From: Methylosinus sp. LW4 | Lineage (GTDB): Bacteria > Pseudomonadota > Alphaproteobacteria > Rhizobiales > Beijerinckiaceae | Reading direction: 5' to 3' | Assembly (NCBI RefSeq): GCF_000379125.1 | Contig: NZ_KB900627.1 | Location: forward strand, 2,312 to 66,311 | DNA length: 64,000 nt | Shown here: positions 1 through 34,262 of the stretch, piece by piece | How the letters are laid out: every line of letters starts with the position of its first letter | Numbering within the stretch: the stretch's first letter is position 1 | Notes under the pieces: model-generated | What the model was told of the DNA's origin: nothing | Seen by the model: the letters and a program-made list of their open reading frames with translations, nothing else | Databases searched by the model: none | Translations under genes and position numbers: made by a program

Positions 1-308
1 TCTGGATCGAGCGGCAGATAGGCGCCGCCCGCCTTCAACACGCCGAGCAAAGCGACCACCATCTCCAGCGAGCGCTCGACGCAAAGGCCGACGATCGTCT
101 CCGGCCCGACGCCGAGACCGACGAGACGACGCGCCAGCCGGCTCGCTCGCGCGTTCAATTCGCCATAGGTGAGAGCGTCTTCGCCGAAGATCGCGGCCAC
201 GGCGTCGGGCGTGCGCTGCGCCTGCGCCTCGAACAGCTCGTGGATGCAAAAGTCATGCGGAAACTCCGCCGATGTGTCGTTCCAATCTAGCAGAAGCTCA
301 CGGCGTTC
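1..308 (-). repeat. A-domain N-terminal repeat, copy 1
   Basis: Encodes the C-A linker and the start of the second A domain of the left-edge synthetase. It is almost base-for-base identical to 3179-3462 and 14889-15206, with only scattered single-base differences. The match probably continues beyond the window edge. Confidence 0.9.
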
Positions 309-3300
309 CGCCTCGCTCAGAATATCGAGCGCCCGAATTGGCGTGGCCGGCGCATTTTCGAGAGCGCTCGAGAGACCGTCGAGAACAACGCGCATGTAAT
401 CGCAAATTTTTACCGGATCGATGGATTCCAGCGTTTGGACTGTGAGCAGAAAGCCCTCGCCGAAATCGTCGACAGACAGCGTGAGCGGGTAATTCGTGCG
501 CTCGTCCGCAAAGATCAGCTCGGCGTCCTCGAAAGCGGATGAGCGGGCCTCGTCCGACTCGCTGTGACGGTAGTTCAGCAATGCAGAGAACAATGGCGTC
601 GGCGCCGCCACCTTGCTGCATCGCTGCGCCAAAGTGAGCGACGCATGTTCATGCTCCAGCAAGCTTGCCAGCAACATGTGCGCGCTGCGCACACGGTCGA
701 CGACGCTTCCGTCCCCGAGCTCGATCCGCATCGGCAGAGTATTGATGAAAAGCCCGAGCCCCAGGCTGTCGCCGCCGCTCATCCGCCCGAGCAGCACCGA
801 GCCGAAGACCACATTCTGACGTCCCGTCAGCTTCCCGAGCATTTGTGCGTAGGCGAGATGGAACAGGCTCGCGGCGCTGACGCCGAGATTTGTGGCGCTG
901 TCCCTCAGTCGCTGCGCGAGGCGAGCGTCGAGCGCGAGCTTCGCCTCGATAATAACGCCATCGCCTTGCATATCGATGAGCCCGAAGGGGGCCGTCGGCT
1001 CGCTGACATCGCCCAGCAGTGATGTAAAAAATGCTTCATGCGCCGAAGCGCTCACACCCAAGCGCGCGCGCGCCACGAAATTTCGATAAGGCGTCGGCTT
1101 CGACGCCAGATTTGTCCTCCCCGACAGATGAGCCTGCGCCTCCTCCATGAGCAATTGGAGAGTGGCGTGGTCCAAAGCAAGATGATGCGTCAAAAGGAGA
1201 AGGAGCCAACGGCTCTTCTCTTCCTCATGCGCGACCACGGCCTGCATCAGCGGCGCAGTACGGACGTCGAGACGGATACGGCGCGGATCGAAGCGCGCGC
1301 GCATTTCCACGGCGGACTCGACCTTCACATAGTCGACGCCCAGCGTCGCATGGCGCCATACGACCTGCATCGGCTCTGATAGCCCTTCCCACACGATGGC
1401 TGTGCGCAGCACATCGTTTCGTTCGATCATCGCTCGCAGCGCCTCGATGAATCGCATCATCGTCTCATGCGACTGGAAGGCGAGCTGGACCGGCATGAGA
1501 TAAGGGTCGCCGTCGACGTTCATCAGATGGTGAAACAATATGCCCTCTTGCAGAGGCGCCAATGGATAGATGTCCTGAATATTTGCGGCGCCGCCGGGAA
1601 CCGATCGAACGATGCGATCGATCTCCGCTCGAGAAAGGCTCGCGAGCGTCACCATTTCCGGCGTAATTTCGTGGCCGTCGCTCGGGATGAGATTTGGCGG
1701 AACCGCCACATCGGGCCGAACGCCCGAGGCGCGCGCCAGAGCAGCCGGAGTCGGCGCGATAAAAAGCATTCGAGCGTCGGCGCGCACGCCGTGCCGGCGC
1801 AGCTGATCGATGACGCGAATCGCTTTCAGCGAGTGACCGCCGAGCTCGAAGAAATTGTCGTCGACGCCGACGCGCTCGACGCCGAGAACAGTTGCGAAGA
1901 CGCGGCACAGCGTCTCTTCCGTCGGCGTGCGCGGCGCGACATAATCATGGCGCTCTCGCGCATCTGGATCAGGATCCGGCAGCGCCTTGCGGTCGAGCTT
2001 GCCACTGGCCGTCAGCGGCATCGCTTTCAGCTGGATAAGCAGCCGAGGGATCATATAGTCAGGCAGATCTCGTCGTAGCGCAGTTTTCACCGCGCCGATA
2101 TCCAGCTCTCCGTCACCCGTCACATAAGCCGCCAAACGCCGGTCGCCCGTAGCGTCCGCGCGCGCGAGCGCTACGGCCTCACGCACGAGAGGAAGACGTC
2201 GCAGCGCCATCTCGATCTCGCCGAGCTCGATGCGAAAGCCACGGATCTTCACCTGATGATCGATCCGCCCGAGGAATTCGATATTGCTGTCTGCTCGCCA
2301 GCGCGCGAGATCGCCTGTACGATACATTCGCTCTCCGGGCGTGCCGAAGGGGTTCGGGACAAAGCGCTCGGCGGTGACGTCCGGTCGGCCGAGATATCCG
2401 CGCGCCACCCCGGCGCCGCCGATATAGAGCTCCCCGGAGACGCCCACGGGAACAGGCCCCCGCTCGTCATCCAAAAGGAAGATTTGCGTGTTCGAGATCG
2501 GCCGGCCGATCGGCGGATTTCGCCAGTCCTGCTCTTGCAAGCGAATGTAGGTGGAATAAGTCGTGCATTCCGACGGTCCGTAGAGATTGAACACGCCATC
2601 GAGATCGCGGCGTCCTAAAGCCTCGGCCAAAGCGGGCGGAAAAGGCTCGCCAGCGAGATTGACGATTCGCACGGACGGCGGCAGCGCGTCGCTCCTCGAG
2701 AGTTCCGCCATAGCCGACGGCACCGTATTGATCACATGCGCCGCTTCGCGTCCGTTCAAGCCGGCGATCTCGAGCACGTTTTTCGCGATCACAATGACGC
2801 CGCCGAAGCTCAATGGCAAAAACAGCTCGAAGACCGACAGGTCGAAGCACAAGGACGTCGACGCCAGCACCGTGGATGCGCCGGGCCGAATGAAAATGTC
2901 CTTCGCCCAATGCAGCATGGCGGCCGTGCTGACATGCGCTATGGCGACGCCCTTGGGTCTTCCCGTGGAGCCCGAAGTGTAGATGACATAGGCGAGATTC
3001 TGCGGCGCGGCGCGGCGGCCGAGCGCTTCGGCGCTCTCGCTTTCGAATTGCTCCCGATCCGCATCGAGCTGCAGGATTTGCGTTCCCGCGGGAAGCCGCT
3101 CCGCGAGACGCTCCTGCGTCAGCACGAGACGCGGCGACGCATCCGCGATCATGTAGGCGAGACGCTCTGCCGGATAGTCTGGATCGAGCGGCAGATAGGC
3201 GCCGCCCGCCTTCAACACGCCGAGCAATGCGACCACCATCTCCAGCGAGCGTTCGACGCAAAGGCCGACGATCGTCTCTGGCCCGACGCCGAGACCGACG

Positions 3301-4934
3301 AGACGACGCGCCAGCCGGCTCGCCCGCGCGTTCAATTCGCCATAGGTGAGAGCGTCTTCGCCGAAGATCGCGGCCACGGCGTCGGGCGTGCGCTGCGCCT
3401 GCGCCTCGAACAGCTCGTGGATGCACAAGTCATGCGGAAACTCCGCCGATGTGTCGTTCCAATCGATCAGCAGCCGCCGACGTTCGGGCCCGCTCAGCAT
3501 CGGCAGCGTTCCGATGCGAGCGCGCGGATCGGCGACAATCGCTTCCAGCAGATTGCGATAATGATCCGCCATGCGCGCGATCGTCGACCGCTCGAACAGA
3601 GCGGCCGCATATTCGATCGATGCGCTCAATGCGCCCTCGCCCTCGGCGACTTCCAATGTGAGATCGAATTTCGACGTTCCGCTGTCCGCCGTAAGACTCT
3701 CGATCCGCAGGCCGGCCAAGGAAAACGCCCGCGCCGGCGCATTCTGAGAGACGAACATCGCCTGAAACAAAGGACTGCGGCTCATGTCGCGCGCCGGGCG
3801 CAGCTCCTCCACCAGACGTTCGAACGGAAGATCCTGATGCTCTTGCGCGCCCAGCGCCGCCTCGCGCACCCGCTCCAAAAGCGTGACGAAGCTCGGATCG
3901 CCAGAGAGGTCCGCGCGCAGAACCAGCGTGTTGACGAAAAAGCCGATCAGCCCCTCGAGCTCCACCCGTCGCCGATTGGCCGTCGGCGCGCCGACGCAAA
4001 TGTCGCTCTGCCCGCTGTAGCGCGACAACAGAAGCTGAAACGCCGCGAGCAATACCATGAACAGCGTCGCGCCCTGCTCCCGAGCGAGGCTCTTCAGCCG
4101 ATCCGCGAGCGCCGCCGGGATCACGAAGCGATGCACGCCGCCGGCGGAATCCTGAACCGCCGGACGCGGATGATCTGTCGGTAGCTCCAGAACCATGGAC
4201 GCATCCGCCAACCTCCGCCGCCAATAGGAGAGCTGCCGCTCCAACCGCTCGCCGCGCAGCCAATCGCGCTGCCAGGCGGCGTAATCGGCATATTGGATGG
4301 GAAGCGGCGGGAGCGGCGACGGACGGCCTGCGACGCGCGCCTCATAGAGCGCTGCGAGCTCGCGCATCAGAACGTCGGTCGACCATCCGTCGGACACGAT
4401 ATGATGCAGCGTGAAGGCGACGAGATGCTCGCGCGCCTCTTCGCCGACGCCGAGATCGATGATGAGGACGCGCAGAAGCGGCCCCTGCGTCAGATCGAAG
4501 GGCCGACGCGTCTCCCGCTCGATGAGACGAAGCGCCTCGGCGGCGCGCGCATCCGTTTCGAGATCGCGCAGATCGACGAGGGGACAGTCGATCTCCAGCG
4601 ATGGCGCGACGATCTGAGTCGCTTCGCCATCGACCACGGAAAAGCGCGTCCGCAGCGTCTCGTGCCGCGCCACGATCGCGTTCACCGCCCAGGAAAGGGC
4701 CGCAATGTTCAACGAGCCGATAAAGCGAAACGCGCCCGCGTTATTATAGGCGGAGCTATCGGGTTGAATAATATCGAGCAGCCATAGGCGCTGTTGCGCA
4801 TAGGACAGCGGCTTCCTCGCGCCGCGATATGCCGCGATCGGCCGCTCCTTGTCCGACTCCTCGTTCATTCGAGTCCGCAACAGCTGCAATTTTTCGGGAG
4901 ACAGGCGCGACAGGCGCTCGATCAGCTCAGCCAT
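1..4934 (-). CDS. Nonribosomal peptide synthetase C-A(Ala-like)-PCP-C-A, 3' end outside window
   Basis: The ATG at 4934 follows a GGAAG ribosome site, and the frame stays open through base 1, so about 1,644 residues are visible. Domains in order: C (about 20-460, HHIVSDG), A (about 500-1010), PCP (GGHSL, Ser near residue 1034), a second C (about 1110-1530, HHLALDH, entry motif YPLAPLQEGILF), then the first roughly 90 residues of another A domain. The A-domain code read by alignment to GrsA is DLFNNALTYK, which resembles codes reported for alanine; this assignment is from memory. The second C has the entry motif typical of DCL or dual E/C domains, so the Ala may be D-configured (inference). 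It lies 32 bp downstream of the CmlA-like gene and last in the visible assembly line, so it adds Ala and at least one more residue. The terminal thioesterase or further modules must lie left of the window. Confidence 0.95.
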   Translation of the reverse strand, partial: MAELIERLSRLSPEKLQLLRTRMNEESDKERPIAAYRGARKPLSYAQQRLWLLDIIQPDSSAYNNAGAFRFIGSLNIAALSWAVNAIVARHETLRTRFSVVDGEATQIVAPSLEIDCPLVDLRDLETDARAAEALRLIERETRRPFDLTQGPLLRVLIIDLGVGEEAREHLVAFTLHHIVSDGWSTDVLMRELAALYEARVAGRPSPLPPLPIQYADYAAWQRDWLRGERLERQLSYWRRRLADASMVLELPTDHPRPAVQDSAGGVHRFVIPAALADRLKSLAREQGATLFMVLLAAFQLLLSRYSGQSDICVGAPTANRRRVELEGLIGFFVNTLVLRADLSGDPSFVTLLERVREAALGAQEHQDLPFERLVEELRPARDMSRSPLFQAMFVSQNAPARAFSLAGLRIESLTADSGTSKFDLTLEVAEGEGALSASIEYAAALFERSTIARMADHYRNLLEAIVADPRARIGTLPMLSGPERRRLLIDWNDTSAEFPHDLCIHELFEAQAQRTPDAVAAIFGEDALTYGELNARASRLARRLVGLGVGPETIVGLCVERSLEMVVALLGVLKAGGAYLPLDPDYPAERLAYMIADASPRLVLTQERLAERLPAGTQILQLDADREQFESESAEALGRRAAPQNLAYVIYTSGSTGRPKGVAIAHVSTAAMLHWAKDIFIRPGASTVLASTSLCFDLSVFELFLPLSFGGVIVIAKNVLEIAGLNGREAAHVINTVPSAMAELSRSDALPPSVRIVNLAGEPFPPALAEALGRRDLDGVFNLYGPSECTTYSTYIRLQEQDWRNPPIGRPISNTQIFLLDDERGPVPVGVSGELYIGGAGVARGYLGRPDVTAERFVPNPFGTPGERMYRTGDLARWRADSNIEFLGRIDHQVKIRGFRIELGEIEMALRRLPLVREAVALARADATGDRRLAAYVTGDGELDIGAVKTALRRDLPDYMIPRLLIQLKAMPLTASGKLDRKALPDPDPDARERHDYVAPRTPTEETLCRVFATVLGVERVGVDDNFFELGGHSLKAIRVIDQLRRHGVRADARMLFIAPTPAALARASGVRPDVAVPPNLIPSDGHEITPEMVTLASLSRAEIDRIVRSVPGGAANIQDIYPLAPLQEGILFHHLMNVDGDPYLMPVQLAFQSHETMMRFIEALRAMIERNDVLRTAIVWEGLSEPMQVVWRHATLGVDYVKVESAVEMRARFDPRRIRLDVRTAPLMQAVVAHEEEKSRWLLLLLTHHLALDHATLQLLMEEAQAHLSGRTNLASKPTPYRNFVARARLGVSASAHEAFFTSLLGDVSEPTAPFGLIDMQGDGVIIEAKLALDARLAQRLRDSATNLGVSAASLFHLAYAQMLGKLTGRQNVVFGSVLLGRMSGGDSLGLGLFINTLPMRIELGDGSVVDRVRSAHMLLASLLEHEHASLTLAQRCSKVAAPTPLFSALLNYRHSESDEARSSAFEDAELIFADERTNYPLTLSVDDFGEGFLLTVQTLESIDPVKICDYMRVVLDGLSSALENAPATPIRALDILSEAERRELLLDWNDTSAEFPHDFCIHELFEAQAQRTPDAVAAIFGEDALTYGELNARASRLARRLVGLGVGPETIVGLCVERSLEMVVALLGVLKAGGAYLPLDP
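2952..3462 (-). repeat. A-domain N-terminal repeat, copy 2
   Basis: Covers the C-A linker to the A3 phosphate-loop motif of the Ala-like A domain. It is near-identical to 14660-15206. Similarity drops sharply just after the A3 motif, where the substrate-binding core begins, and returns around A6 (from about 2500 down to 1850, against 14130-13490). Confidence 0.85.
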
Positions 4935-4966
4935 TATCGTTCTTCCAGACTCGCGTGTTCAATCGG

Positions 4967-6565
4967 TCAGATCAGGATTTCGGTTCGGCCGAAGAGAAGC
5001 TTCGCGTCGACGCCCATTTCATCGTTCAACGACCGAATATACTTGGCGATCTCCGCCATGTAGACGTCGTCCTCGGCGGGAGTGAGGGCGAGGAGATATC
5101 GTACCCATGGCTCGCGCCCGACCGCATAGATGAACGCCTGCCGACAACGCACAGCGCGCGCGAGCTCCAGAGCGGTGTTGGAATTGCACCCATTTGAGCG
5201 GCGTCCCTGGCTATGTCGATGATCGGGCTTGTTCGGCAAAATCGGCCCATAGACCCAATTCAACGGCGCGCCGACGCATTCCATTCCGACGAAGAGAGTG
5301 TCGATGGGACCCGTCTCGCGAAGCAGATGCGCGTAGATCTCCGAAACCAGGCAATTGGAGTCGGCGGCGAAGAGCAGGCTTCGCGTTCCGAGGCGCAGAA
5401 AATAGGCCGTTTTCGCGGAGGGCAGATCATTGTGCTCCCCCAGGAACGGAACCGCGACAATTCGGCCATTGGGAATGGCGAATTCATCGAGGCAATCGAC
5501 CTCCCGCACATTCGAGAACCCGAGCTGACGCGCCAGCAGCGTCAGCGACAGATCGCCATAAAAAACGCCCGAGCTCCTCGGCGCTACGAGGGTCCCGATC
5601 TTGCGTCTCAACCGCAGTAACGTCTCGATGACGAAATGATCGTGGTGCCCATGCGTGATGAGAACATAATCGATCCACTCCGGCAGATCGCCAAAGCTGA
5701 AACGTTCCACGTCATGACGCTCTGGACGCGGCGCGATCAGCGGATCGACGAGGATCGAAACCCCTCCGCTCTCCACGAGCACGCAGGCGTGCCCGAAGTA
5801 TCGAATGCGAATTCGATCGCCGCGCCATGGCGCTCGAATGGCGCCGTCGCTCTCGCGCAAAATGGCTCGCAGCTTCGCGTCCTGCGACGTCGGAGAGTCC
5901 AGCAAGGATCTGATCTCGGCGAAGGATTTCGGCTCCTGTTCCAGACGGAACAGCTCGTCGATTTTGGGATCGTCGAAAGCGACGTTCCAATCGAGAGAAT
6001 CGTCTCCTGGCAATCTCGGCGTGCTCATATAATAGGGACGCTCGAGGTCGGTCTCCTGACGAAACAGGCGTAGCGACTGGGCCTCCTTCTTATAATATCC
6101 GCTCTTGTAGAGAAGCCCTTCGAGCGGCCGCACGATCGGTCGATTGTAGTAATCGTAGAGAAGCTCGACATAGCCACGCAGCGGTTCGGGAATCCGTCGA
6201 TAATAGCCCTCGAGGCTTTCGCCATTCGCTTCGTTGACGAGCCGATTGTGAAACGCGATCAGCGCGCGCGCGAAAGCGAGATTATCCGAAAAATCATCCT
6301 TCATCTTAGCCGAGAAGTCGCGAACCTCGGCTAGGCGCGACGTCGGGACGTCGACGAAAGCGCCGCCCAAAAGCTTGGGATTGCGGCAAGAGGTCTCGTG
6401 AATTCCAGGATTCGCGAGATAGGAGTCGAGCGTCGTGATCTGGTAGTTCAGAAGATGCAGACTCTGCGTGACCGGAGACATCACATGGGGCCACGCCACC
6501 CATCGTCCGACCAAAGGCTCTACACATACGCTCTCCGCGAGAGCGTAGCGGATCTCGTCAGACAT
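4967..6565 (-). CDS. CmlA-like diiron beta-hydroxylase acting on PCP-bound amino acid
   Basis: The 532-residue protein starts at the ATG at 6565, which overlaps the end of the upstream synthetase by 8 bp and follows an AGGAAGGA ribosome site. An N-terminal domain of about 245 residues precedes a metallo-beta-lactamase fold with the metal motif HGHHDH at residues 305-310. GEH places a Glu at 377, and there is an Asp at 402. Length and spacing match CmlA of chloramphenicol biosynthesis (also 532 residues as I recall, with H305/H307/D309/H310/E377-type iron ligands). CmlA beta-hydroxylates an amino acid held on an NRPS carrier protein using O2 and a dinuclear iron centre. The gene directly follows the His-like C-A-PCP module, so PCP-bound histidine is the likeliest substrate (inference). 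An ordinary metallo-hydrolase is the alternative, but the N-terminal domain and context argue against it. Confidence 0.85.
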   Translation of the reverse strand: MSDEIRYALAESVCVEPLVGRWVAWPHVMSPVTQSLHLLNYQITTLDSYLANPGIHETSCRNPKLLGGAFVDVPTSRLAEVRDFSAKMKDDFSDNLAFARALIAFHNRLVNEANGESLEGYYRRIPEPLRGYVELLYDYYNRPIVRPLEGLLYKSGYYKKEAQSLRLFRQETDLERPYYMSTPRLPGDDSLDWNVAFDDPKIDELFRLEQEPKSFAEIRSLLDSPTSQDAKLRAILRESDGAIRAPWRGDRIRIRYFGHACVLVESGGVSILVDPLIAPRPERHDVERFSFGDLPEWIDYVLITHGHHDHFVIETLLRLRRKIGTLVAPRSSGVFYGDLSLTLLARQLGFSNVREVDCLDEFAIPNGRIVAVPFLGEHNDLPSAKTAYFLRLGTRSLLFAADSNCLVSEIYAHLLRETGPIDTLFVGMECVGAPLNWVYGPILPNKPDHRHSQGRRSNGCNSNTALELARAVRCRQAFIYAVGREPWVRYLLALTPAEDDVYMAEIAKYIRSLNDEMGVDAKLLFGRTEILI

Positions 6566-9935: not shown

Positions 9936-9982
9936 GAGGCGGTCGCTCCGAATGGCTCGTTTCTCGAGGGAGGACTCGCGTC

Positions 9983-15900: not shown

Positions 15901-18670
15901 CGTAATCGGGAATGGAGGGGCGCGGAAAATCCGTCGGCAATTCGAGCGAAGGCAAGGGGCCGCTAAGCTGGTCGCGCCAATAGCTCCAATCCCTTTCGGC
16001 GGCGGACGATGCGAGATAATTCGCTTCACGACGAACGAATGCGCCATATTCCCCGCTCGTGGGCGGAGCAAAGCGGCCTCCCGCCTCCAAGGTGCAATAG
16101 GCGGCGTCGAGCTGCGAGATCAGGAGCAGCAACGACCACAAATCGACAGCGATGTGATGTGCGACGAATAGGAGAGTCGAGCCGCCGTCGCCCCGACGAT
16201 AGAGGATGATCCGAAACGGAGCCTGCGCGTCGAGATCGAACGGACGTTGGGCTTCTCGCGACAGCGCGCCATTCAGCTCGGTCGCCGTCCAGGCCGTCGC
16301 ATCCTCCAGGCGCAGCCGATCGGCCAGAGCTTCGAGGGGAAGCGCTTCCTGACCGACGCCGTCCGAGCCGGAGCGATAGACGGTGCGAAGCTGCGCATGG
16401 CGCTCGACGAGCAATGACAGCGCCCGGCGGAAGCAGTCGAAGTCCAACGTCTCGTCGATATCGAGCGCGAGATGCAGATTATAGGCGCTGCTCGCCGCAT
16501 CGAGCCGATGGACGGTCCAGATAGCGCGCTGGCTGTAGGATAGAGCCCGTGGGTCTGGCGTGCGCGCCGCCTCGCGCGCCGTCGATGCGTCATCGTCAGC
16601 GAGCCCGGCGAGCGCTTCGGCTGCTTCCGCAAAGCTCGCATCCGAGAGCAAAATCCCGATCGGCGTTTCGATTCCGAGCACGGAATCCAGTGAATGCTTC
16701 ACCTCGATCGCCCGCAGCGACGAAAGTCCGCTTCGAGAAAGCGAGCTGGCGGCGTCGAAATCGCTTTCCGGCGCCCCCAGTGATCGCGCCACTCTGGAAA
16801 TGAGAAAGCGCGTGAGAAGCGCGGCCTTTTGCGCCGGCGCCAGATAGGAGAGCGCCTCGCGCAGGAACGCCTCGGCCGGCGCCGCTCGCTCCGCCGCGGC
16901 CGGCGGCGCAGAGAGATGCGTGCGGGCCAATGTCCGCAGATCTCCTGATAAATAGCGTTGTCGACACTCCGCCCGCCGAAGCTTGCCGCTCGACGTCTTG
17001 GGAACCGAGCCGGGCTGCACGAGCAAGATATCGGTCGGCTCGATATCGACCTCATTGGCGACGCAAGCGCTGATCTTGCGAAGCAGCGCGTCGCCGCCGC
17101 CATTTTCCAGAGCCGCCAAGAATGATCGATCCGGCTCCGCCACGACAATGAGAGCTTCTCGATCGTCGATGGTCGCAGAGAAGGCCGCCGTGCAGCCGCG
17201 TCGCAATCCGTCGATCTGCTCATCGATGACGCATTCTATGTCTTGCGGATGAAAATTTCGGCCGGCGACGATGATCAGATCCTTGAGGCGGCCGGCGACG
17301 AAAATCTCGCTCTGCTCCATGAAGCCGAGATCGCCCGTCCGCAGATAGGCGCGCCCATTCCCTCCGGCGATCGTCGCGCCGAAGACGCGCGCCGTATCGT
17401 CCGGCCTGTTCCAATAGCCCTGCGCAACGCCTGGTCCCGCGATCCAAATTTCGCCGACTTCACCCGGGGCGCAGAGCTTCGTCGACTCGGGGTCGACGAT
17501 TTTGACTTCATATCCCGGCCAGCCGTGGCCGCAGCCGACGACGGCCGTGGATTTGGCGCCTTGCGACGGGACGATGCGGCGCGCCTCCAACGCCTGCCGA
17601 TCCACTTCGATAATCGGTAGCGGCCGGCGATGCGTCGGCGCCGTCGCCACCAGCGTCGCCTCCGCGAGCCCGTAGCAGGGATAGAAGCTGTCACGCCGAA
17701 AGCCGGCGCCCGCGAAAGCTCGAGCGAAGCGATCGAACGTGGACGCGCGCACCGGCTCGGCGCCGCTGAACGCAATGCGCCAATGGCTCAAATCGAGATC
17801 GCGCTTGTCTTCGTCCTTTATCTTGCGCGCACAAAGATCGAAGGCGAAATTCGGACCGCCGCTCGTATGCGCTCGATAGGCGGAGATCGCCTTCAGCCAA
17901 CGCAGCGGCTTTTCGAGGAACGCCATGGGCGACATCAGATAGGCGGTCGCGCCGATATAGAGCGGCTGGAGAATATTCCCGATCAGTCCCATGTCGTGAT
18001 AGAGCGGCAACCATCCGACGAGATCGCAGCGCTCGTCATGTCCGAAGCTCTTCTCGATGAGCGCCTGGTTGCTGATGAGATTGGCGTGCGTGACCATCAC
18101 GCCGCGGGGATCGCCGGTCGAGCCCGACGTATATTGCAGAAAGGCGATCTGATCCGGCTGCGGCGCATGAGCGCGCCACGCTTCCGCCTGTTCGGAGGAG
18201 ATCACGTCGGTCGCCGCCCAGGGGCAAGGAATTCGCGCCGATTGCTCGCCGGCCTCGTTCTCGAACCGTTGGCGCAACGCCTCCGTCGTCAAGATCGCGG
18301 CCGGTCGCGCGTCGCGGAATATCGATTGCAGCCTTTGCAAATGCCGGCCGGAAGGCGGATAGGCGGGGACGGCGACAACGCCCGCGTAGAGGCAGCCGAA
18401 AAAGGCCTCGATATAATCGAGGCCCGGCGGATACAGCAGCAGAGCGCGCTCGCGGGTCAGCCCCAGCGCGGTCAAATGCGTCGCGATCGCACGCGCTCTG
18501 CGATCGAGATCGCCATAGCTCAGACGCGCGCCTTCTCTCTCGCCGTCGTCGAGAAAGACATAGCCCGGCTTCGTCCCCTGCTCGGCGGCGCGAATGCGCA
18601 ACAGATCGACGAGATTGCGGGCGGCGAGAGGAAGGTCGGTCCTGCGGACGCCATCGAGAACGATCGCCAT
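9983..18670 (-). CDS. Lipo-initiating NRPS: FAAL-ACP-C-A(Ser)-PCP-C-A(Dab-like)-PCP
   Basis: 2,895 residues from the ATG at 18670, which has AAGGAAA upstream; a GTG at 18691 is less likely. A fatty acyl-AMP ligase (about 1-575) activates a free fatty acid and loads an ACP (GLSSL, Ser near 652). The next C domain has HHIAVDL, with Leu in place of the usual Gly, as I recall for lipo-initiation C domains after FAALs. The first A domain (about 1175-1690) reads DVWHISLIDK, the classic Ser code, and is followed by a GGDSI PCP. The second C (HHIIMDD, entry motif YPLTPMQEGMLF) looks like a DCL or dual E/C domain. The last A domain reads DIWELCADDK, close to reported diaminobutyrate codes, and ends with a GGHSL PCP. 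The architecture parallels PvdL-type starters. The Ser A domain carries an unusual charged insertion of about 30 residues before A6. Confidence 0.96.
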   Translation of the reverse strand: MAIVLDGVRRTDLPLAARNLVDLLRIRAAEQGTKPGYVFLDDGEREGARLSYGDLDRRARAIATHLTALGLTRERALLLYPPGLDYIEAFFGCLYAGVVAVPAYPPSGRHLQRLQSIFRDARPAAILTTEALRQRFENEAGEQSARIPCPWAATDVISSEQAEAWRAHAPQPDQIAFLQYTSGSTGDPRGVMVTHANLISNQALIEKSFGHDERCDLVGWLPLYHDMGLIGNILQPLYIGATAYLMSPMAFLEKPLRWLKAISAYRAHTSGGPNFAFDLCARKIKDEDKRDLDLSHWRIAFSGAEPVRASTFDRFARAFAGAGFRRDSFYPCYGLAEATLVATAPTHRRPLPIIEVDRQALEARRIVPSQGAKSTAVVGCGHGWPGYEVKIVDPESTKLCAPGEVGEIWIAGPGVAQGYWNRPDDTARVFGATIAGGNGRAYLRTGDLGFMEQSEIFVAGRLKDLIIVAGRNFHPQDIECVIDEQIDGLRRGCTAAFSATIDDREALIVVAEPDRSFLAALENGGGDALLRKISACVANEVDIEPTDILLVQPGSVPKTSSGKLRRAECRQRYLSGDLRTLARTHLSAPPAAAERAAPAEAFLREALSYLAPAQKAALLTRFLISRVARSLGAPESDFDAASSLSRSGLSSLRAIEVKHSLDSVLGIETPIGILLSDASFAEAAEALAGLADDDASTAREAARTPDPRALSYSQRAIWTVHRLDAASSAYNLHLALDIDETLDFDCFRRALSLLVERHAQLRTVYRSGSDGVGQEALPLEALADRLRLEDATAWTATELNGALSREAQRPFDLDAQAPFRIILYRRGDGGSTLLFVAHHIAVDLWSLLLLISQLDAAYCTLEAGGRFAPPTSGEYGAFVRREANYLASSAAERDWSYWRDQLSGPLPSLELPTDFPRPSIPDYVGGSAPLRLDRETTHRLKERAKREGVSLFSLLLAAYFALLHRVTGQSDLVVGAPTSGRLGSETVGLVGNCVNPVALRVRAQSQDSFDDLLHRTHATVRGALRHQQFPFPLIVERLQPERNESQWPIYQSWFVLQQAQAEAPADFAALALGEDGAPFSFCGRRARSSRLRERVQMFDLAVMAAEVGEELLLSFQFETQLFTATTIERLTRRYHALLAGVLDDPQARIGDLPFLEEAERRELLLDWNDTSAEFPHDLCIHELFEAQAQRTPDAVAAIFGEDALTYGELNARASRLARYLIGLGVGPETIVGLCVERSLEMVVALLGVLKAGGAYLPLDPDYPAERLAYMIADASPRLVLTQERLAERLPAGTPILRLDADREQFESASAEALGRRAAPQNLAYVIYTSGSTGKPKGVAAPHHGVVNRVDWMQKRYGLTAEDTVLQKTPLGFDVSAWELFWPLQAGARLALAAPNDHREPARLAELIQRHSVTTLHFVPSMLRAFMSVVDMAPLGSLRRVICSGEELPAAAAQSFRAATAAELHNLYGPTEASIDVSAYRCAPDDATALSSEENTTERAKLESLRLDPKRKGSGERVPIGRPISNIRLYILDAGFEPVAVGVAGELCIGGVGLARGYLGRADLTAERFVANPFVAGERMYRTGDLVRWRRDGNIEFLGRIDHQVKIRGFRIELGEIEAALQRRPDVRDAVAVAWADGSGDKRLAAYVTGEGELDFEAVKTALRRELPDYMVPQLFVRLDALPLTASGKLDRKALPAPDPDAQSRRDYAAPRTPTEETLCRVFAEVLGVERVGVDDGFFALGGDSIRAIQAASRLRQAGYELTPRQLFQHPTVRLLAPGLTLGAEAAPKSEAERALAQFAAPFALAELEPDEIDGILHRHGDVEDLYPLTPMQEGMLFHALSQTGTGLYHMQERYEIRGPLDVEAFASAWRRVIGRHAALRTSFEWDVKARAHQVVHSRVDLPVDIIDLRHLSDADQLSYIDRLLSREREDGFDLSIAPLMRIKIIRVGDDRHICVRSFHHIIMDDWCTSPLLLDVRRHYAAELKGEPVDVEPPGQFRDYIAWLRTKDLASAESFWRRYLEGFSEPTPLVGARATEVTAEAAASVDDVVVTLSAEDRRKLEELARRHLLTVNTFVQGALALLLGRYADVDEVAFGVTVAGRPIDLPSSETALGLFINGLPLRVRIRPDQPIIDWLKKIMTSNLEMRQHEFVSQSMIQSWSSIPRANALLFQHLLTFENAPIDPSLRGEKDILDIDLLQLRVHTNYPLTFVAIPGDTLTLRLTYDRERFEASTIGRMATHFQRALEELIAKSDGRVGDVQLLAPAELRRAVVEWNDTDHDYGEPLDLVQRFEAQAARHPDTVAAACEGETLTYRALDERTNHIASALVEAGVGRDSLVALWDTRGLSFLAAMLGVFKAGAAYLPLDPAYPDGRILQVLKEAEVEWILAGTDHLERASALCEALDEAERPLLIAPMTSGEATTTRSPRRNEPRNLAFVIFTSGSTGKPKGVMVEHRGMFNNLITKERALNLTADDVIAQTASQCFDISVWQFLTAIAIGARVEIFPDEISRDPQRLLEEIDRRGVTILEAVPSMIKALLDVVEDGERLARLRWLLPCGEAFTPELCRRFMARFPNIHLLNAYGPAECSDDVSYYPIDAAPEGDDLSVPIGRPVDNTQIYILNRRLDLAPPGVAGEICVGGVQVGRGYLRRPELTAQSFVPDPFGPSGSILYRTGDLGRYRPNGVIEFLGRADHQVKIRGHRIEPGEIEACLVTHPLVEAACVVARRLSKGAHGLIAYVVAPQLDASALREHVLQTLPDFMVPSAFVCMDALPLISNGKVDRDKLPEVDAFAHVSRAYVAPRNATEEILCEIWAEALETPRVGVEDNFFELGGHSLLAIRLRSRIRSAFGIEMPLPVVFEASTVAKLAERVEDLILADIEELSDAEASRRAQEMAEARV
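14660..15206 (-). repeat. A-domain N-terminal repeat, copy 3
   Basis: C-A linker to A3 motif of the Ser-activating A domain. It is near-identical to 2952-3462 and, over its distal 318 bp, to 1-308. The following core (about 14230-14650) is unrelated at base level to the corresponding core of the Ala-like domain. Confidence 0.85.
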
Positions 18671-18722
18671 TTTTCGCCGTTTCCTTTGCACTTTCCCGAT
18701 CGTGACGCGACGCGCCGATCGG

Positions 18723-19616
18723 TCACGACACGTAGCTGAGATAGGATTTGTAGAAGGGCATGACGCGCTTGGGCGGGACGCCGGCCCACATGCCGAAAGC
18801 GATCAGCGCATTGTAGTAGACGTTCTGGAGAGGCATGCCGCGCATCGCCGCCAGCAGGCCCTTCAGAGCGCTGTCTTTCGTGTGCCAATCGACGTTGAAG
18901 GACAGGGCGCAATCGAGGCTTCTGACATGATGCAGCGTGCCGGGCGGCATGTAGAGCAGATCGCCGGGACCGACCACGATCTCGACGCCGCGCGCATCGC
19001 GGTAGAGCGGATAGCGCTCATGATCGGGATTTTCCACGTCTACGCTGCACCAGCGCCAATTATAAGGATAGCAGCGTTGCAGATCGTCGTGGGGGAATAG
19101 GGTGAAGCGCTTCCGACCGGAGATTTGAAAGAACAAATTGTGAGTCAGAAGACAGTCGAAATGCAGTGGCGTGAGGCTCGCCGACGGTCCGAGAAACATC
19201 TGCGCGAATTTTGGCCAGTCGGCGCCGTACCACGACGGAAAATAGCTTCGAGGAAAGGCCGCGAGATCGGCGCTCGCGTCACGAAGCACGCTGGTCAAAG
19301 GAATGTCGTGCAGATAGAGCGGCCTCGCGCCATCGGGCTCCCCCGCCGCCAGGCGTCTCTCATAGAGCTCCAAGCTGTCGAGATAATCAGCGAGCGGCAT
19401 ATGAGAGATTTTGACGCCGGATGCGGTCCATTCCTTCAGCGGCGTCTTCAAGTCGCCGGCCCGACGACGAAGATGATCGAAGGTCCAATCGGAGAGAGCC
19501 GCGCATTCTTTCAGAGCGCCTCTCACGACCACCGGCCGCGCGGGACGAATGTAGAATTTCACGAAATCGTCAGGCGACAGACGATCCAGCTCTGCGACGC
19601 CGTAGGGCTTCGACAT
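18723..19616 (-). CDS. Cupin-like (JmjC/FIH-type) Fe(II)/2-oxoglutarate oxygenase
   Basis: 297 residues, with a GGGAGCGGGA ribosome site before the ATG at 19616. It has a Cupin_8-type double-stranded beta-helix core: the facial-triad motif LHFD (H152, D154), then ISGRKRF, a probable 2-oxoglutarate-binding strand, and the distal metal His in PPGTLHH (H229 or H230). Members of this family hydroxylate beta-carbons of Asn, Asp or His in proteins, and some act in peptide natural-product pathways. It lies between the mbtH-like gene and the synthetases in a tight run of genes, so it is probably a tailoring enzyme of the same peptide. A second beta-hydroxylation, perhaps of an Asp added by a module outside the window, is a reasonable hypothesis. 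The substrate cannot be read from the sequence. Confidence 0.85.
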   Translation of the reverse strand: MSKPYGVAELDRLSPDDFVKFYIRPARPVVVRGALKECAALSDWTFDHLRRRAGDLKTPLKEWTASGVKISHMPLADYLDSLELYERRLAAGEPDGARPLYLHDIPLTSVLRDASADLAAFPRSYFPSWYGADWPKFAQMFLGPSASLTPLHFDCLLTHNLFFQISGRKRFTLFPHDDLQRCYPYNWRWCSVDVENPDHERYPLYRDARGVEIVVGPGDLLYMPPGTLHHVRSLDCALSFNVDWHTKDSALKGLLAAMRGMPLQNVYYNALIAFGMWAGVPPKRVMPFYKSYLSYVS

Positions 19617-19704
19617 TCCCGCTCCCGCTCTTTGATTTTTTACGATCGCGCGTCTCGCGAGAGCGCGCCGAAACGCGATCTCGCCGCACGACGATGAGAC
19701 AGGC

Positions 19705-19929
19705 TCAGGAGGCAGCCGTCTGAGCTTCGGCCATTTGCCGGCGCAAGCTCAAGGGACGCATGTCCGTCCACACTTCTTTGATGTAGGCGAGACACTCCGC
19801 TTTCGGACCCGTTTTGCCAACGGCGCGCCACCCGGCTGGAATGGCCTTGTAATCCGGCCAAATCGAATATTGCTCTTCGTGATTGATCACGACCGTGTAG
19901 ATCGTGCGATCCTCTTCGTCCCGATCCAT
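19705..19929 (-). CDS. MbtH-like NRPS chaperone
   Basis: 74 residues from the ATG at 19929, which has GAGAGGAG upstream; an in-frame extension to 20019 lacks family similarity. The MbtH signature is clear: [16 protein letters not shown], then CLAYIKEVW and TDMRP. MbtH proteins bind A domains and are often required for their folding and adenylation activity. It is encoded 88 bp upstream of the cupin oxygenase and in front of all the visible synthetase genes, so it probably serves these A domains. The gene may be the first of the biosynthetic transcription unit, since about 330 bp of non-coding DNA precedes it. Confidence 0.95.
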
Positions 19930-20258
19930 GAGCCGGCTCCTCTCGTTGCAGTCTCGCAGAACGCCGAGATCGCATTCTGCTCGTTCCACAAAGCTAGACG
20001 GATCGGCCTCGCAAAACACGCCAATGAAAATTTCAGAAACTGCTTCTTGGACCAGCGGGGCTCATCGCCGACCGGCGTCGCTCGCCGAAAGGTCGCGCGA
20101 AGCACGTCGAGACGCATCGCCTCGCGGCGAATAGCGCGACCGCGCGTCCGAGGCTTCTCGTCGGATTGGATCACGCTCCCGATCGCAGCGTGCGGAGAGC
20201 GCGCGCAGACGCCCGCTCACGATCGCCGAGCCTGCCGATGCGCCGCTCGCGAGGCGCG
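19930..20258. other. Intergenic region upstream of mbtH-like gene
   Basis: No convincing coding sequence was found: short open frames here are Arg-rich and lack ribosome sites. Position suggests it carries the promoter of the mbtH-cupin-NRPS unit. No clear Fur, Irr or RirA box was recognised by eye. Confidence 0.5.
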
Positions 20259-21500
20259 CTATTCCGAGGACCGGAGCGCGGCGGATTTCGGCGCCTCGGC
20301 CGAATCGCGTCGCGCATGAAAGCGACGGGCTCCTCGCTTTTTCCACCAGATATAGACGCCGGTCGCCGACAGCGCCGTGAGCGCGAGGCCGAGCGCGCAA
20401 ACGAAGAGCCTGTAGGGCAGACCGAATATGCGCGCCATATGCAGCGCGTAGAGCCAGCTCTCGATCGTGTTGCCGACATGCTCGCCCGTGGGCTCGGACG
20501 CCTCGATCAAATGGCCGTCGTCGCCGTCGAGCATCACATATGTGCCGCCGCCTTTCGGCGAGCGCTCGAAGAGATCCCGCCCGCCGCGGACCTCGTAAAT
20601 ATAGGCGTTCGCCTCTTCCAGATAGGACAGCGCCAAGGCTTTGCCGATCGCGAAGCCGCGAATGGCCGATTGCTCGGCGATGAGCCGCTCGCCGGTCTCC
20701 TGCGCCGCGCGCCAGTCGAGCATGGGCGGCCGGTACGCGCGCTTCGGCAAGGCCAGATAGAGATCGAGCGACGAGTGGAAGTCGAACAGAGACCGCATCA
20801 CCGGCTCATAGACGAAGGGTCGCAAGTTCATCATCACGCTCGACCAGGCGAAGACGAACAGCGCCGCCCATAGCCAGAGGCCGCCCGCGCGGTGGAGATC
20901 GAAATTCAGGCGATAGAAGCCGGCGTTGCGCTTGACGAGCCAAGCCGGCTTCCAGCGCCGCACAAAGGATTTCGTCGTGGGCGGAAAGGTCAGATAGAAG
21001 GCCACGAAGCAATCGAGCGTCCAGATCGTCGCGACGATCCCCAATATCAGCTGGCCGGCGACGCCCAGCATGAGACGCCAGTGCAGATCGTAGATGAAGG
21101 GCATGAGATTGACGAGGCCTTCGGAGAGATCGGCGCGCCTGCGTCGGCCGAGCTCCGCGCCGGTCCATGGATCCACGAAGAATTCCGTGAAGCCGAGATC
21201 ATATGGCGCCTGCGTCTGCGGATTCTGCCGCGGGGCGAAGGAGATCGAGACTTGATCGGGCTCCGCATAGGTGACGGAGATCACGCGGCCCTGCGGGACT
21301 TGCGCCTCGGCGCGTGACGCCAGCGCCGCGAGTCCGAGCGGCGGCGCATCGATCCGCGGCGTCGCGAAGAGCTGGGGCGCGAAGACGCGCTCCAGCTCCG
21401 TGTTGAAGGCGAGCAGGCTGCCGGTCAGGCCGACGACGACGAGAAACGCCGCCATGGCCAGCCCGGCCCAGCGATGCAGGAAAACGAAAAAGCCGCGCAA
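20259..21500 (-). CDS. PepSY-associated transmembrane protein (putative siderophore reductase)
   Basis: The best start is the TTG at 21500, giving 413 residues, because GGAGG lies 7 nt upstream; the longer TTG frame from 21545 begins inside a hairpin. The protein begins with a HRWAGL helix and has about four membrane helices (near 10-35, 130-155, 180-205 and the C-terminus) flanking a large periplasmic part. This is the PepSY_TM family, commonly encoded beside TonB-dependent siderophore receptors; some members are thought to act in ferric-siderophore reduction. It sits 73 bp downstream of the receptor gene with a strong hairpin between, so it may be expressed at a lower level than the receptor. 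Confidence 0.88.
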   Translation of the reverse strand: MRGFFVFLHRWAGLAMAAFLVVVGLTGSLLAFNTELERVFAPQLFATPRIDAPPLGLAALASRAEAQVPQGRVISVTYAEPDQVSISFAPRQNPQTQAPYDLGFTEFFVDPWTGAELGRRRRADLSEGLVNLMPFIYDLHWRLMLGVAGQLILGIVATIWTLDCFVAFYLTFPPTTKSFVRRWKPAWLVKRNAGFYRLNFDLHRAGGLWLWAALFVFAWSSVMMNLRPFVYEPVMRSLFDFHSSLDLYLALPKRAYRPPMLDWRAAQETGERLIAEQSAIRGFAIGKALALSYLEEANAYIYEVRGGRDLFERSPKGGGTYVMLDGDDGHLIEASEPTGEHVGNTIESWLYALHMARIFGLPYRLFVCALGLALTALSATGVYIWWKKRGARRFHARRDSAEAPKSAALRSSE

Positions 21501-21528
21501 GCCTCTTCCTCCTCTCTGGAGGGCGGGT

Positions 21529-21563
21529 CCGACGCTCGGCGCCAAAGGGGCGCCGAGCGTCGG
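21529..21563 (-). terminator. Perfect 15-bp inverted repeat after receptor gene
   Basis: CCGACGCTCGGCGCC is followed by a 5-nt loop and its exact complement, starting 11 bp past the receptor stop codon. No long U-run follows. It probably acts as a terminator/attenuator or mRNA 3' stabiliser separating receptor from PepSY expression. Confidence 0.75.
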
Positions 21564-21573
21564 CTAAATGTCG

Positions 21574-23790
21574 TCAGAACTCGGCGCGAATAGAGGCGAG
21601 GAATGTCCTCGGCGCGCCGGGCGCAATGCTGAACCGATCGTAGGAATGCAGATAGTAGGTCGTGTTCAGCAGATTCTTGACATTGAATTGGAGCGACACA
21701 TTTTTCGCCCAGGGCGCGAGCGAGGCCGGCAGGCGATAAAGGATCAGCGTGTCGACTCTCGCATATCCCGGCAGCTGGAAGTCGTTCTGATTGTCGCCCT
21801 GACGTTGTCCGACCGCGAAGACGCCCGCTCCGAGGCTCAAACCCTGAAACTGGCTCGAAGCGTCATATTTCACCCATAGGCTTCCAGAGTGCCGCGGAAC
21901 ATTCTGCAGGCGATTGCCCTCCTGGCCGCCGGTGAGCGGCGTTCCATTCGCGTCGGCGATGATGCGCGCGTCGTCATAGCTGTAATTGCCGATGACGCTC
22001 CAATTATCGTCGATGCGGCCGGTGACGTCGAGCTCGACGCCGCGGCTCTCGACGAGGCCCACGGGACGAGAGAATTGCGTGCCCGGGATCGACTGCACGA
22101 CTCCCGATTTGGTGATGTCGTAATAGGCGAGAGTCGCGACGAGGCGCTTGTCGAGCAGCTCGGCCTTCACGCCCCCTTCCCATTGCAGGCCGCGTTGTGG
22201 CGAGAAAGGAAGGCTGCCGGGGCTCGGAATGCCATTGGTCGAGCCGAAGGAGCGCGTGTAGTTCGCATAGAAGGAGAGCCACGGCTGAGGCTGCAGCACG
22301 ACGCCGAGGCGAGGGCTCCAGGCATGATCGACAGCGTTCTGGAAGCCGGCGCCCGTATCCGAATTATAGAGAGATCGCGCCTGCTGGAAGGAGCTCGAGC
22401 TGGAGCCATAACCATAGCTCGCCCAGTCGTGACGCCCGCCGAGCAGGACATGCACGCGATCGTCGAGGAAGGAAATCATGTCCTGGCCATAGATTCCCTT
22501 CCAGGATTGACGCTGGTCCCAGTAGAAGTTGTTCGCGGGCTTGATATAGCCGGTGGTCGCATAGGCAGGCGCATAGGCGTTGAGCGGCGTGATGGACGAG
22601 CCGTCACAGCAATAGCCGAAGTCGTGATTCTCGTCGTAGCGATAATCGGCTCCGAGCAGAATTTCGTGGCGGAACGGGCCGGTCTCCAGCTTCCCTTTCA
22701 GATCGAGATTCGAGTTGAGGACGGCGCGATGGGCGTTGACGTCCCAAATGCTGAAGCCCGTCGCGCCGGTCGGCGCATCGAAGGACGAAATGTCGGTGAG
22801 CCTTTGAGCCCATTGCAGGTCGGTATACATGAAACGATTGGTGAGGCTCCAATCCTTGTCGAAGTCGAAGGTCCAGTCATAGCTGACCAGCCCTCTCTCC
22901 AGGCGGCTCGGATTCGCGCGCGTCACTGCGGGACTCTGGAGATAGCGGCCGACGGGCAAGGACGCCGGACGGTCTCCGATGGCGGGGAGGACAGTATCCG
23001 CGTCCGAGACGAAGCTCGTGTTCTGATATTCGAAGTCGAGATTGAACCGCAATTGCTCGGTCGGACGCCAGCTGAGCGTGGGCGCGACGAACGCGTCCTG
23101 ATTGGTCACGAAATTGCGAAAAGAATCGGCGTGGTTGAACGAGACGTTCAGCCGATACAGCCAGGTCTTGTCCTCGGTCAGCGGGCCGGTGGCGTCGACG
23201 CTGGTGCGCGTGAGGCCCCAGGAACCCGCCTGCTCCTCGATGGAGTAATAGCGGTAATCGAGCGGGCGCTTGGTGATCAGATTGACGGCGCCGCCCGGCT
23301 CCAGACGTCCATAGAGCATGGCGGCCGGCCCTTTGAGCACCTCGATCGATTGCAGATTGGCGGTTTGGAGATGCGTGAGGTTCGGCGTGGCGAGATTGTT
23401 GCGGAAAATGCTCGAGCTATCGAACCCGCGAATGGTGAAGCCGTCATAGAACGTGTCGCCGCTCGGCTGCACGCCGGAGACATTGCCGACGATGGCGTCC
23501 TGGACCGAAATGGCCTGCTGGTCGTCCAGCACCTGCCGCGGAACCACCTGCACCGAAATCGGATTCCGCATCGTGTCGATGCCGTCCTTGGTCGAGCTGG
23601 CCGGCTGGCTCGCGGCGGCGTAGCCGGTGAAGCGGTCTCCTGGCCCCTCGGCCGGCAGCGCCGGCCGGCGCTGCGCCGATGAGTCGCCGGCGACATCGAT
23701 CGTGGGGAGCGCCTCCTGCGCGAGCGCGGCGACGGACGGAAGCATGAGGACCAATGCGGAAACGCCCCGCAAGAGGATCGAGTCTTTCAT
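21574..23790 (-). CDS. TonB-dependent siderophore receptor
   Basis: 738 residues from the ATG at 23790, preceded by AGGAGA. A signal peptide (about 1-25, ending ALAQ) leads into a plug domain with typical features: ISVQVVPRQVL, DAIVGNVSGV, FTIRGFD, IEVLKGPAAMLYG and PGGAVNLITKRP. A 22-strand barrel region follows, ending in a terminal aromatic residue (RAEF). This matches the FhuA/FpvA-type ferric-siderophore receptor family (TIGR01783-like). No N-terminal signalling extension is present, so it should not signal through a FecI/FecR pair. Its position ahead of the PepSY and NRPS genes suggests it imports the metal complex of the peptide made by this locus. Confidence 0.95.
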   Translation of the reverse strand: MKDSILLRGVSALVLMLPSVAALAQEALPTIDVAGDSSAQRRPALPAEGPGDRFTGYAAASQPASSTKDGIDTMRNPISVQVVPRQVLDDQQAISVQDAIVGNVSGVQPSGDTFYDGFTIRGFDSSSIFRNNLATPNLTHLQTANLQSIEVLKGPAAMLYGRLEPGGAVNLITKRPLDYRYYSIEEQAGSWGLTRTSVDATGPLTEDKTWLYRLNVSFNHADSFRNFVTNQDAFVAPTLSWRPTEQLRFNLDFEYQNTSFVSDADTVLPAIGDRPASLPVGRYLQSPAVTRANPSRLERGLVSYDWTFDFDKDWSLTNRFMYTDLQWAQRLTDISSFDAPTGATGFSIWDVNAHRAVLNSNLDLKGKLETGPFRHEILLGADYRYDENHDFGYCCDGSSITPLNAYAPAYATTGYIKPANNFYWDQRQSWKGIYGQDMISFLDDRVHVLLGGRHDWASYGYGSSSSSFQQARSLYNSDTGAGFQNAVDHAWSPRLGVVLQPQPWLSFYANYTRSFGSTNGIPSPGSLPFSPQRGLQWEGGVKAELLDKRLVATLAYYDITKSGVVQSIPGTQFSRPVGLVESRGVELDVTGRIDDNWSVIGNYSYDDARIIADANGTPLTGGQEGNRLQNVPRHSGSLWVKYDASSQFQGLSLGAGVFAVGQRQGDNQNDFQLPGYARVDTLILYRLPASLAPWAKNVSLQFNVKNLLNTTYYLHSYDRFSIAPGAPRTFLASIRAEF

Positions 23791-23871
23791 AGCTGAATTT
23801 CTCCTGGCGCGACGACATTGGCCGCGCGAAAGCCGAAAGGAAGGAAGATGCGGCGGAGCCGCTGCTCGGGC

Positions 23872-24297
23872 TCAGGAGAAAAGGGGCGGCGCGCGGGGCG
23901 ACCAGGAACTCGCCCAGCCGCTCGGCCGGCCGCTGCGCTTGTCGACCGGGGGCCAGACGCCGCCGCGCGGCGCGTCGAAAGCCGGCGACCCGGCGAGAGA
24001 GGCGTGGAGGAGGTCGAACGCCGGCGGCGCCGCATCGCAATTGCGGTCGCAGGCTCCAAAGAACAGGCAACAGAGCGGCTCGTCGTGGCCGGGAGCGCGC
24101 CGATGAGCGTCCGACTTCTGCGCGACGCAAGCGACGGAAGGCGTCGATGCGCCGAGCTCCGTCGTCATCGAATGCGGCGACCTGCCGCCGCCGATCGCGG
24201 CGAAGGCCTGGAGGGCGAAACAGAGCGCCGCCAAGCTCATGAAAAGCCAACGGAGCCTTTTCGCCAATCCCTTCGGGTGAGTTTCAGCCGCCGTCAT
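23872..24297 (-). CDS. DUF2946-like small exported Cys-rich protein
   Basis: 141 residues from the ATG at 24297, with GGAGG 9 nt upstream. One N-terminal hydrophobic helix (about 15-40) is followed by a His/Cys-containing segment (PLCCLFFGACDRNC) and a C-terminal SPRAPP motif, as in DUF2946 proteins. These are often encoded next to metal-related TonB receptors and may bind metal in the periplasm; function is unproven. It is first in the receptor operon, 81 bp ahead of the receptor gene. Family assignment rests on the motif pattern only. Confidence 0.65.
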   Translation of the reverse strand: MTAAETHPKGLAKRLRWLFMSLAALCFALQAFAAIGGGRSPHSMTTELGASTPSVACVAQKSDAHRRAPGHDEPLCCLFFGACDRNCDAAPPAFDLLHASLAGSPAFDAPRGGVWPPVDKRSGRPSGWASSWSPRAPPLFS

Positions 24298-34046: not shown

Positions 34047-34262
34047 CCACGCCTGCGCGCCGCGGGCCGAAATCAGCCGATCATGCAGATGATTTCCTCA
34101 TTGTCGCGCGGGTGAGCCGCGCCTCGTCGCCAGAGTCCCCGCAAGGGTCGGCGACGGCCGAAAATTGTTTGGCGCTTTCATCGATCCTCGCGCGTCTATG
34201 TCAGCAGGAATGCGTACGCCGACGGAATGGTCCGTCGTCGCGAGGCGCCGACGAGGTGCACG

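Follow-up and report, generated by a model that had tools for sequence, protein, structure and literature searches.

Corrugatin, ornicorrugatin and histicorrugatin are lipopeptide siderophores of Pseudomonas that contain 2,4-diaminobutyrate (Dab) and beta-hydroxyhistidine (beta-OH-His). The maturation of pyoverdine proceeds from a start on PvdL through export by PvdE and deacylation by PvdQ to FpvA and FpvG. According to the accessible parts of the papers cited here and below, the rule set for nonribosomal peptide (NRP) metallophores assigns beta-OH-His to the TauD enzyme family (PMC12971057), and in Bordetella pertussis the CruR open reading frame (ORF) places the genes of a TonB receptor and a PepSY_TM protein under copper control, for which its CXXC and RAPP motifs are required (PMC9426467, PMC12914433, PMC13038864). 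The present analysis concerns a stretch of 64,000 nucleotides of Methylosinus sp. LW4 (the window), comprising bases 2312-66311 of scaffold C2 (842,783 bp) in a genome of 4.8 Mb, and the nonribosomal peptide synthetase (NRPS) cluster at its left end. This is a conserved, uncharacterised, metallophore-type cluster of methanotrophs; an earlier examination of the window letters alone (the sequence-only reading) had also called it uncharacterised, and no described product turned up in the accessible text of the methanotroph siderophore literature.

We put at roughly 0.62 the probability that Methylosinus and Methylocystis use the cluster for the nonribosomal synthesis of a metallophore, by a pathway that would proceed as follows. 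The fatty acid loaded by a fatty-acyl-AMP ligase (FAAL) would be extended to acyl-Ser-Dab-His-Ala-Ser-Gly by six or more modules, a seventh being possible. His would be beta-hydroxylated on the carrier protein by a CmlA-type diiron enzyme, and a cupin_8 dioxygenase would introduce a second, Asp-independent modification, perhaps on Dab or His. A thioesterase (TE) would then free the peptide, which a PvdE/SyrD-type ATP-binding cassette exporter would carry into the periplasm; there its fatty acid would be cut off by an acylase of the penicillin-amidase type. Finally, the metal-loaded peptide would re-enter through the TonB receptor and be unloaded by the PepSY_TM protein. From gene content, adenylation codes, gene order and conservation, which are observed, we infer the chemical steps, a join across an assembly break and metal binding.

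To read the adenylation codes, 44 adenylate-forming domains were aligned; codes extracted by a motif script were partly wrong, and only aligned codes were used. The window contains DVWHISLIDK (Ser), DIWELCADDK (Dab), DSALVAEVWK (His) and DLFNNALTYK, which we take to be an Ala code, and a fifth adenylation (A) domain, cut by the assembly break, whose visible pieces resemble the Ser domain A1. The Dab assignment is probable from the code and from a Dab transaminase gene in the window, whose orthologues directly adjoin the MbtH gene in two related genomes, G042 and G089; another aminotransferase gene (26815-28086) was rejected as the Dab supplier in its favour, having scored only 54 bits. Solved fatty-acyl-AMP ligases are among the best matches of the first NRPS1 domain. 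Published codes (PMC12283262) include DILQLGMIWK for Gly, DLTKVGHVGK for Asp/Asn, DVWHLSLVDK for Ser and DSALIAEVWK for a His domain that accepts the beta-OH form; the His code of the window is one residue off the latter, which the other close loci match exactly.

The assembly line of a close relative, G174, reads Ser-Dab-His-DLFNNALTYK-Ser-DILQLGVIWK and then TE, and that of G042 reads Asp-Dab-His-DLFNNALTYK-Ser-Asp, while the visible parts of G161 and of locus L030 read Asp-Dab-His. The G089 line, Asp-Dab-His-Ser-Dab-Ser-DAMFLGCTYK-DAWQLGLIDK-DFWNIGMVHK-Ser-Dab, is longer: not counting the FAAL, it has 11 or more A domains. X1-Dab2-His3, where X1 is Ser or Asp, is therefore common to the six loci (the window and these five relatives), and position 3 is His in each of the five in which the FAAL start was seen (the window, G174, G042, G161 and G089). 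The sequence-only reading had described an alphaproteobacterial NRPS metallophore-type cluster of order Ser-Dab-His-Ala-..., and the aligned codes support it; its four codes, FAAL, MbtH protein, TonB siderophore receptor, PepSY protein and two oxygenases were all confirmed to be present.

The CmlA-type enzyme probably beta-hydroxylates His on its carrier protein. This substrate is proposed from gene neighbourhood: in all six close loci the hydroxylase gene directly follows the His module, so that the beta-OH-His expected by the sequence-only reading is likely. The six hydroxylases form one clade (support 100/99), with proteins of gammaproteobacterial methanotrophs as its sister clade, and the best named relative of the window enzyme is a Methylosinus sporium protein (98% identical). 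Membership of the CmlA-type diiron class is borne out by the profile score (Table 1), by the HxHxDH motif and by further diiron residues. Among solved structures, its closest relative is 8a90, a non-heme diiron monooxygenase, and CmlA comes next; HxHxDH, the E of GEH and the D of ADS, the last two presumably diiron ligands, are conserved with respect to CmlA and 8a90 in a comparison with 8a90 and 5kik. As for the His module itself, all 26 homologues of single-module length (1072-1135 aa) among the best 120 matches of NRPS2, including the window's own protein, carry DSxLxAEVWK, while of the remaining 94 one has DTALIAEVWK in its second module and two yielded no code.

Among 199 genomes of the family, the hydroxylase was matched over most of its length in five beyond its own (G174, G042, G161, G089 and, at 35%, G079), and five genomes of the same genus gave no match. 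Searches of 398 and 369 genomes returned three matches (the own genome, G385 and G482) and one match (G705), respectively, those outside the own genome showing at most 38% identity; a contig scan returned two loci. At 13 distant hydroxylase loci, the nearest code was His in two (G079 and G705, the latter with another gene between hydroxylase and His module), and the A domains detected at the other 11 included no His-type code. CmlA as a general marker of His was rejected, as none of the nine plasmid matches opened (out of 12) had a detected His-type code, and the G385 and G482 loci are not His either. The His label requires three changes on the hydroxylase tree. At L051, a Gloeocapsa plasmid, an NRPS of single-module size (code DAPTLGAVNK) has a CmlA-like domain directly after it, within a protein whose annotation is thioester reductase.

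TauD (PF02668) was not found within the cluster, its only matches in the own genome lying at C1:712 kb and C1:1907 kb; in the search of four genomes, of which G161 was not one, there was none in G042 or G089 at E 0.001. The antiSMASH NRP-metallophore rule asks for one of a list of chelator pathways (IBH_His, TBH_Asp and others; PMC12971057); its TauD-type terms have no match in the cluster, and the other terms were judged from Pfam scans of the cluster genes. CmlA does not occur in the accessible main text of that paper, and a literature survey by word occurrence found no paper pairing "CmlA" with "hydroxyhistidine" in its accessible text. The cluster offers a defined peptide and a candidate beta-OH-His route which the genome-mining rule, in its accessible text, does not list (PMC12971057).

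The other oxygenase of the cluster is the cupin_8 protein. It is present in the own genome and in G174, G042, G161 and G089 (60-92% identical), and without a match in G079, the sixth genome searched. It is 92% identical in G174, whose line, like that of the window, has no Asp code, and its substrate is therefore not Asp alone; the candidates shared by all lines would be Dab and His.

On the left, the NRPS line is interrupted by a break in the assembly that falls within near-identical modules. Scaffold C2 starts 2,311 bp to the left of the window, and two 100-N gaps at its start lie inside or beside such modules. NRPS3 runs off the left edge, as the sequence-only reading had supposed, and the end of the line was found on the same scaffold: with the last NRPS of G174 as protein query, a stretch 85% identical was located at C2:232002-233795, extending up to another 100-N gap and reading as A, peptidyl carrier protein (PCP) and TE, with the Gly-like code DILQLGVIWK. 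The absent part of the line, from the Gly-like module and thioesterase to the exporter and acylase, would accordingly occupy C2 227-234 kb, and its join to the window is proposed on synteny and 85% identity. A fragment at C2:1-924, 96.6% like the A1 (Ser) module, is not placeable, and therefore six and seven modules are both possible. The arrangement of C2:1-2311 and 227516-233795, with the end of the line some 230 kb away, indicates a scaffold misjoin or a displaced contig. The displaced NRPS end is adjoined by a gene whose product has a Mu-type transposase domain, and 7,500 N (C2:219812-227311) lie directly beyond the acylase gene.

The exporter beside the displaced end is of the PvdE/SyrD type (TIGR01194, 423.7 bits, cut-off 286.2), and next to it lies an acylase of the penicillin-amidase family (PF01804, 523 bits). 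In four genomes (the own genome, G161, G042 and G089; thioesterase checked in the first three) the two genes are neighbours and come after the end of the NRPS. Because such an exporter and acylase are present, a pyoverdine-like deacylation is suggested, and the end product may lack an acyl chain. Since both genes follow the thioesterase piece, the acyl-peptide end product of the sequence-only reading is doubtful. TonB receptor and PepSY genes stand beside the NRPS genes in the window and G174, in G042 and in G161, in different gene orders.

Some observations weigh against the proposed pathway. The join across the break is spanned by no read contig. The PvdQ-specific model scores the acylase far below its cut-off (43.2 versus 950 bits), the acylase of G042 shares just 27% identity across 347 residues, and the G174 stretch examined gave a 198-residue acylase match and no exporter match, which suggests that the maturation genes of G174 are decaying. 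No receptor match was found within the 60-kb stretch of G089, and near the CmlA-His loci of G079 and G705 neither a FAAL-like start nor MbtH nor a receptor was seen, so that the pairing of CmlA with His is not in itself a sign of a metallophore. The low PvdQ score and the divergent and truncated acylases of G042 and G174 agree with a lipopeptide that keeps the chain loaded by the FAAL, the acylase being a degrader or part of another pathway. We regard this as a minority possibility, in view of the exporter-acylase pair that follows the NRPS end in four genomes. At approximately C4:195158-199700, the G174 NRPS genes are followed by transposase-like genes (weak rve match).

Iron and copper are both candidates for the metal, since a CruR-like leader ORF belongs to the receptor operon; the sequence-only reading had likewise allowed for either. 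The proposed peptide may be an iron siderophore of the beta-OH-His/beta-OH-Asp kind, binding Fe(III) through beta-OH-His and Asp or the C-terminal carboxylate, taken up by TonB transport and reduced by a FoxB-like PepSY protein, with the window lineage as a derived variant in which both Asp were lost. This has somewhat less than an even chance. It accords with the Asp codes at position 1 in G042, G161, G089 and L030 and at position 6 in G042, and with a receptor that exceeds the TonB-siderophore model cut-off and resembles pyochelin, ferrichrome and ferrioxamine receptors. Residues 17-412 of the PepSY_TM protein match 7abw (E 4e-54), which we take to be FoxB, an iron-siderophore reductase. However, the window and G174 lines, which lack Asp codes, retain few hard donors, and a CruR-like leader precedes the receptor in the window, G174 and G042.

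A His at position 3 together with a free amine forms the amino-terminal Cu(II)- and Ni(II)-binding (ATCUN) copper site, as in serum albumin. Deacylation would leave H2N-X-Dab-His, and therefore a copper metallophore, whose receptor operon the CruR-like leader would turn on when copper is scarce, rivals the iron siderophore, though with clearly less than an even chance. Methanotrophs require copper, His is third in all five lines with a FAAL start, acylase and exporter are present, and the order of CruR-like ORF, receptor and PepSY gene matches the copper operon of B. pertussis (PMC9426467, PMC12914433, PMC13038864). The CruR-like ORF, its export signal judged by eye, is the first gene before the receptor and ends in SSWSPRAPPLFS, with RAPP three residues before the stop; the corresponding ORFs end in RAPPLFS in the window and G174 and in RAPPSIS in G042, and a DUF2946 protein of G146 ends in SWSSRAPPAFS. 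Against copper, the CXXC expected some 45 residues before RAPP is not intact in the window (CCLFFGACDRNC) and not exact in G174, whereas G042 has CCILC; PF11162 (DUF2946) matches neither the window nor the G174 ORF, and the G042 counterpart scores 22.6 bits (cut-off 23.7). The G161 receptor stretch holds no RAPP-ending ORF, and G174 has no intact acylase. In eight Methylosinus/Methylocystis genomes (107 DUF2946 entries; threshold-limited lists with weak matches included, leaving out four receptor entries of G128 and G017), PF11162 lies at most 300 bp upstream in 14 of 91 receptor matches and 0.3-3.5 kb upstream, mostly about 2.2 kb, in 21 more, hinting at widespread copper leader ORFs.

A further point against copper is that the genome has its own MbnB (C2:372144-372920). 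G174 and G161 likewise have an MbnB above the cut-off, that of G161 being interrupted by an in-frame stop, and none was found in G042 or G089; therefore, the NRPS cluster occurs both with and without MbnB. Moreover, two other siderophore-type clusters, of M. trichosporium OB3b, rose rather than fell with copper on methane (PMC12811070); the accessible text of that paper leaves open which metals they bind. On balance, we place iron slightly ahead of copper. That methanotrophs make a second, NRPS-built chalkophore beside methanobactin, by FAAL-started synthesis, diiron His hydroxylation and periplasmic deacylation to an H2N-X-Dab-(beta-OH)His ATCUN Cu(II) site, with the receptor under a CruR-like copper leader, seems unlikely as a whole. 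Because copper governs methane oxidation, such a second copper metallophore would, if real, be important for the physiology of methanotrophs.

The loci appear to have been rebuilt recently. The receptor is 40-42% identical between the window and G174, amid regulator, kinase, PepSY, MbtH and cupin_8 proteins that are 88-95% identical, and the window receptor is closer to relatives elsewhere (60% in G146); for these reasons it was probably exchanged between otherwise similar loci. In G174, identity reaches 98.5% between A1 and A5 (1679 bp) and 98.9% between the condensation (C) domains C4 and C6 (1781 bp). The same test found no internal repeat of at least 90% in G042, and G089 contains an internal 4838-bp copy (99.6%). 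Most simply, module 1 of the window/G174 lineage received a copy of a Ser domain, where the four other loci have Asp; near-identical module copies also explain the assembly break.

The genes of the window are listed in Table 1. The order of transcription, on the minus strand, is CruR-like ORF, receptor, PepSY_TM, MbtH, cupin_8, NRPS1, NRPS2, CmlA-type hydroxylase and NRPS3. Heavy-metal two-component models score the regulator/kinase pair of the window below cut-off. The efflux genes listed last might possibly export the mature product. A CHASE2-adenylate/guanylate cyclase gene lies near the cluster (window 28718-30655), and the same genome has a second NRPS gene (about 2504 aa) at C2:466914-474428.

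Table 1. Features of the window (window positions; domain calls from Pfam; starts 9935 and 6565 chosen from close-homologue lengths; ACP, acyl carrier protein; RND, resistance-nodulation-division; OEP, outer membrane efflux protein).
Feature	Position	Strand	Basis or remark
NRPS3, partial at window edge: C-A(Ala-type)-PCP-C(motif presumably dual epimerization/condensation, E/C)-A(partial)	3..4934	-	Pfam and code
CmlA-type diiron beta-hydroxylase, proposed His beta-hydroxylase	4967..6565	-	CmlA_N PF18456, 276 bits
NRPS2: C-A(His)-PCP	6558..9935	-	Pfam, aligned code
NRPS1: FAAL-ACP-C-A(Ser)-PCP-C-A(Dab)-PCP	9983..18691	-	Pfam (three adenylation, two condensation), aligned codes
cupin_8 (FIH/JMJD5-like) dioxygenase	18723..19616	-	Pfam; HxD...H intact
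MbtH-like protein	19705..19929	-	PF03621, 84 bits
PepSY_TM protein, probable periplasmic metal-chelate reductase	20259..21545	-	Pfam, 199 bits; 7abw match
TonB-dependent siderophore-type receptor	21574..23790	-	Pfam; TonB-siderophore model 331.5 bits, cut-off 223.5
CruR-like (divergent DUF2946) small Cys-rich ORF of 147 aa, end RAPPLFS	23872..24315	-	81 bp upstream of receptor
Response regulator and sensor kinase	24668..26805	+	Pfam; divergent from receptor operon; adjoins receptor also in G174 and G161
Dab-2-oxoglutarate transaminase (Dab supply)	34227..35783	+	NF005393, 700.5 bits, cut-off 671
RND tripartite efflux genes (OEP, AcrB-type, adaptor)	38012..43942	-	Candidate exporter of mature product

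With the corrugatin group, the predicted product would share Dab, beta-OH-His, a lipid start and TonB uptake. The residues thus appear to resemble corrugatin, yet the known beta-OH-His route is absent: here the His hydroxylase is CmlA-type and not TauD-type, and because the one replaces the other, kinship with that route, as the sequence-only reading had supposed it, is doubtful. There are six C and six A domains (NRPS1 and NRPS2 of the window with NRPS3 and NRPS4 of G174), and therefore no extra interface domain is seen; in addition, the acylase and exporter suggest acyl removal. With pyoverdine the cluster has in common a fatty-acid start, Dab, MbtH, a cyclic-peptide exporter, an acylase, a TonB receptor and a PepSY protein, but the cluster genes scanned with Pfam include no chromophore or hydroxamate gene, and the acylase is only distantly like PvdQ. 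The hydroxylase shares family, HxHxDH motif and position adjoining an NRPS module with FrsH of FR900359 (PMC7794379) and CmlA of chloramphenicol, whereas its neighbouring module is a His module and it belongs to a separate, supported methanotroph clade. The small RAPP ORF, TonB receptor and PepSY_TM gene recall cruR-crtA-crpH of Bordetella pertussis (PMC9426467, PMC12914433, PMC13038864), but the window copy has no exact CXXC, is attached to an NRPS cluster and is separated from the receptor by 81 bp rather than 162 bp. Methanobactin is also a Methylosinus metallophore, but it is ribosomal, and the MbnB gene of this genome is separate from the NRPS cluster.

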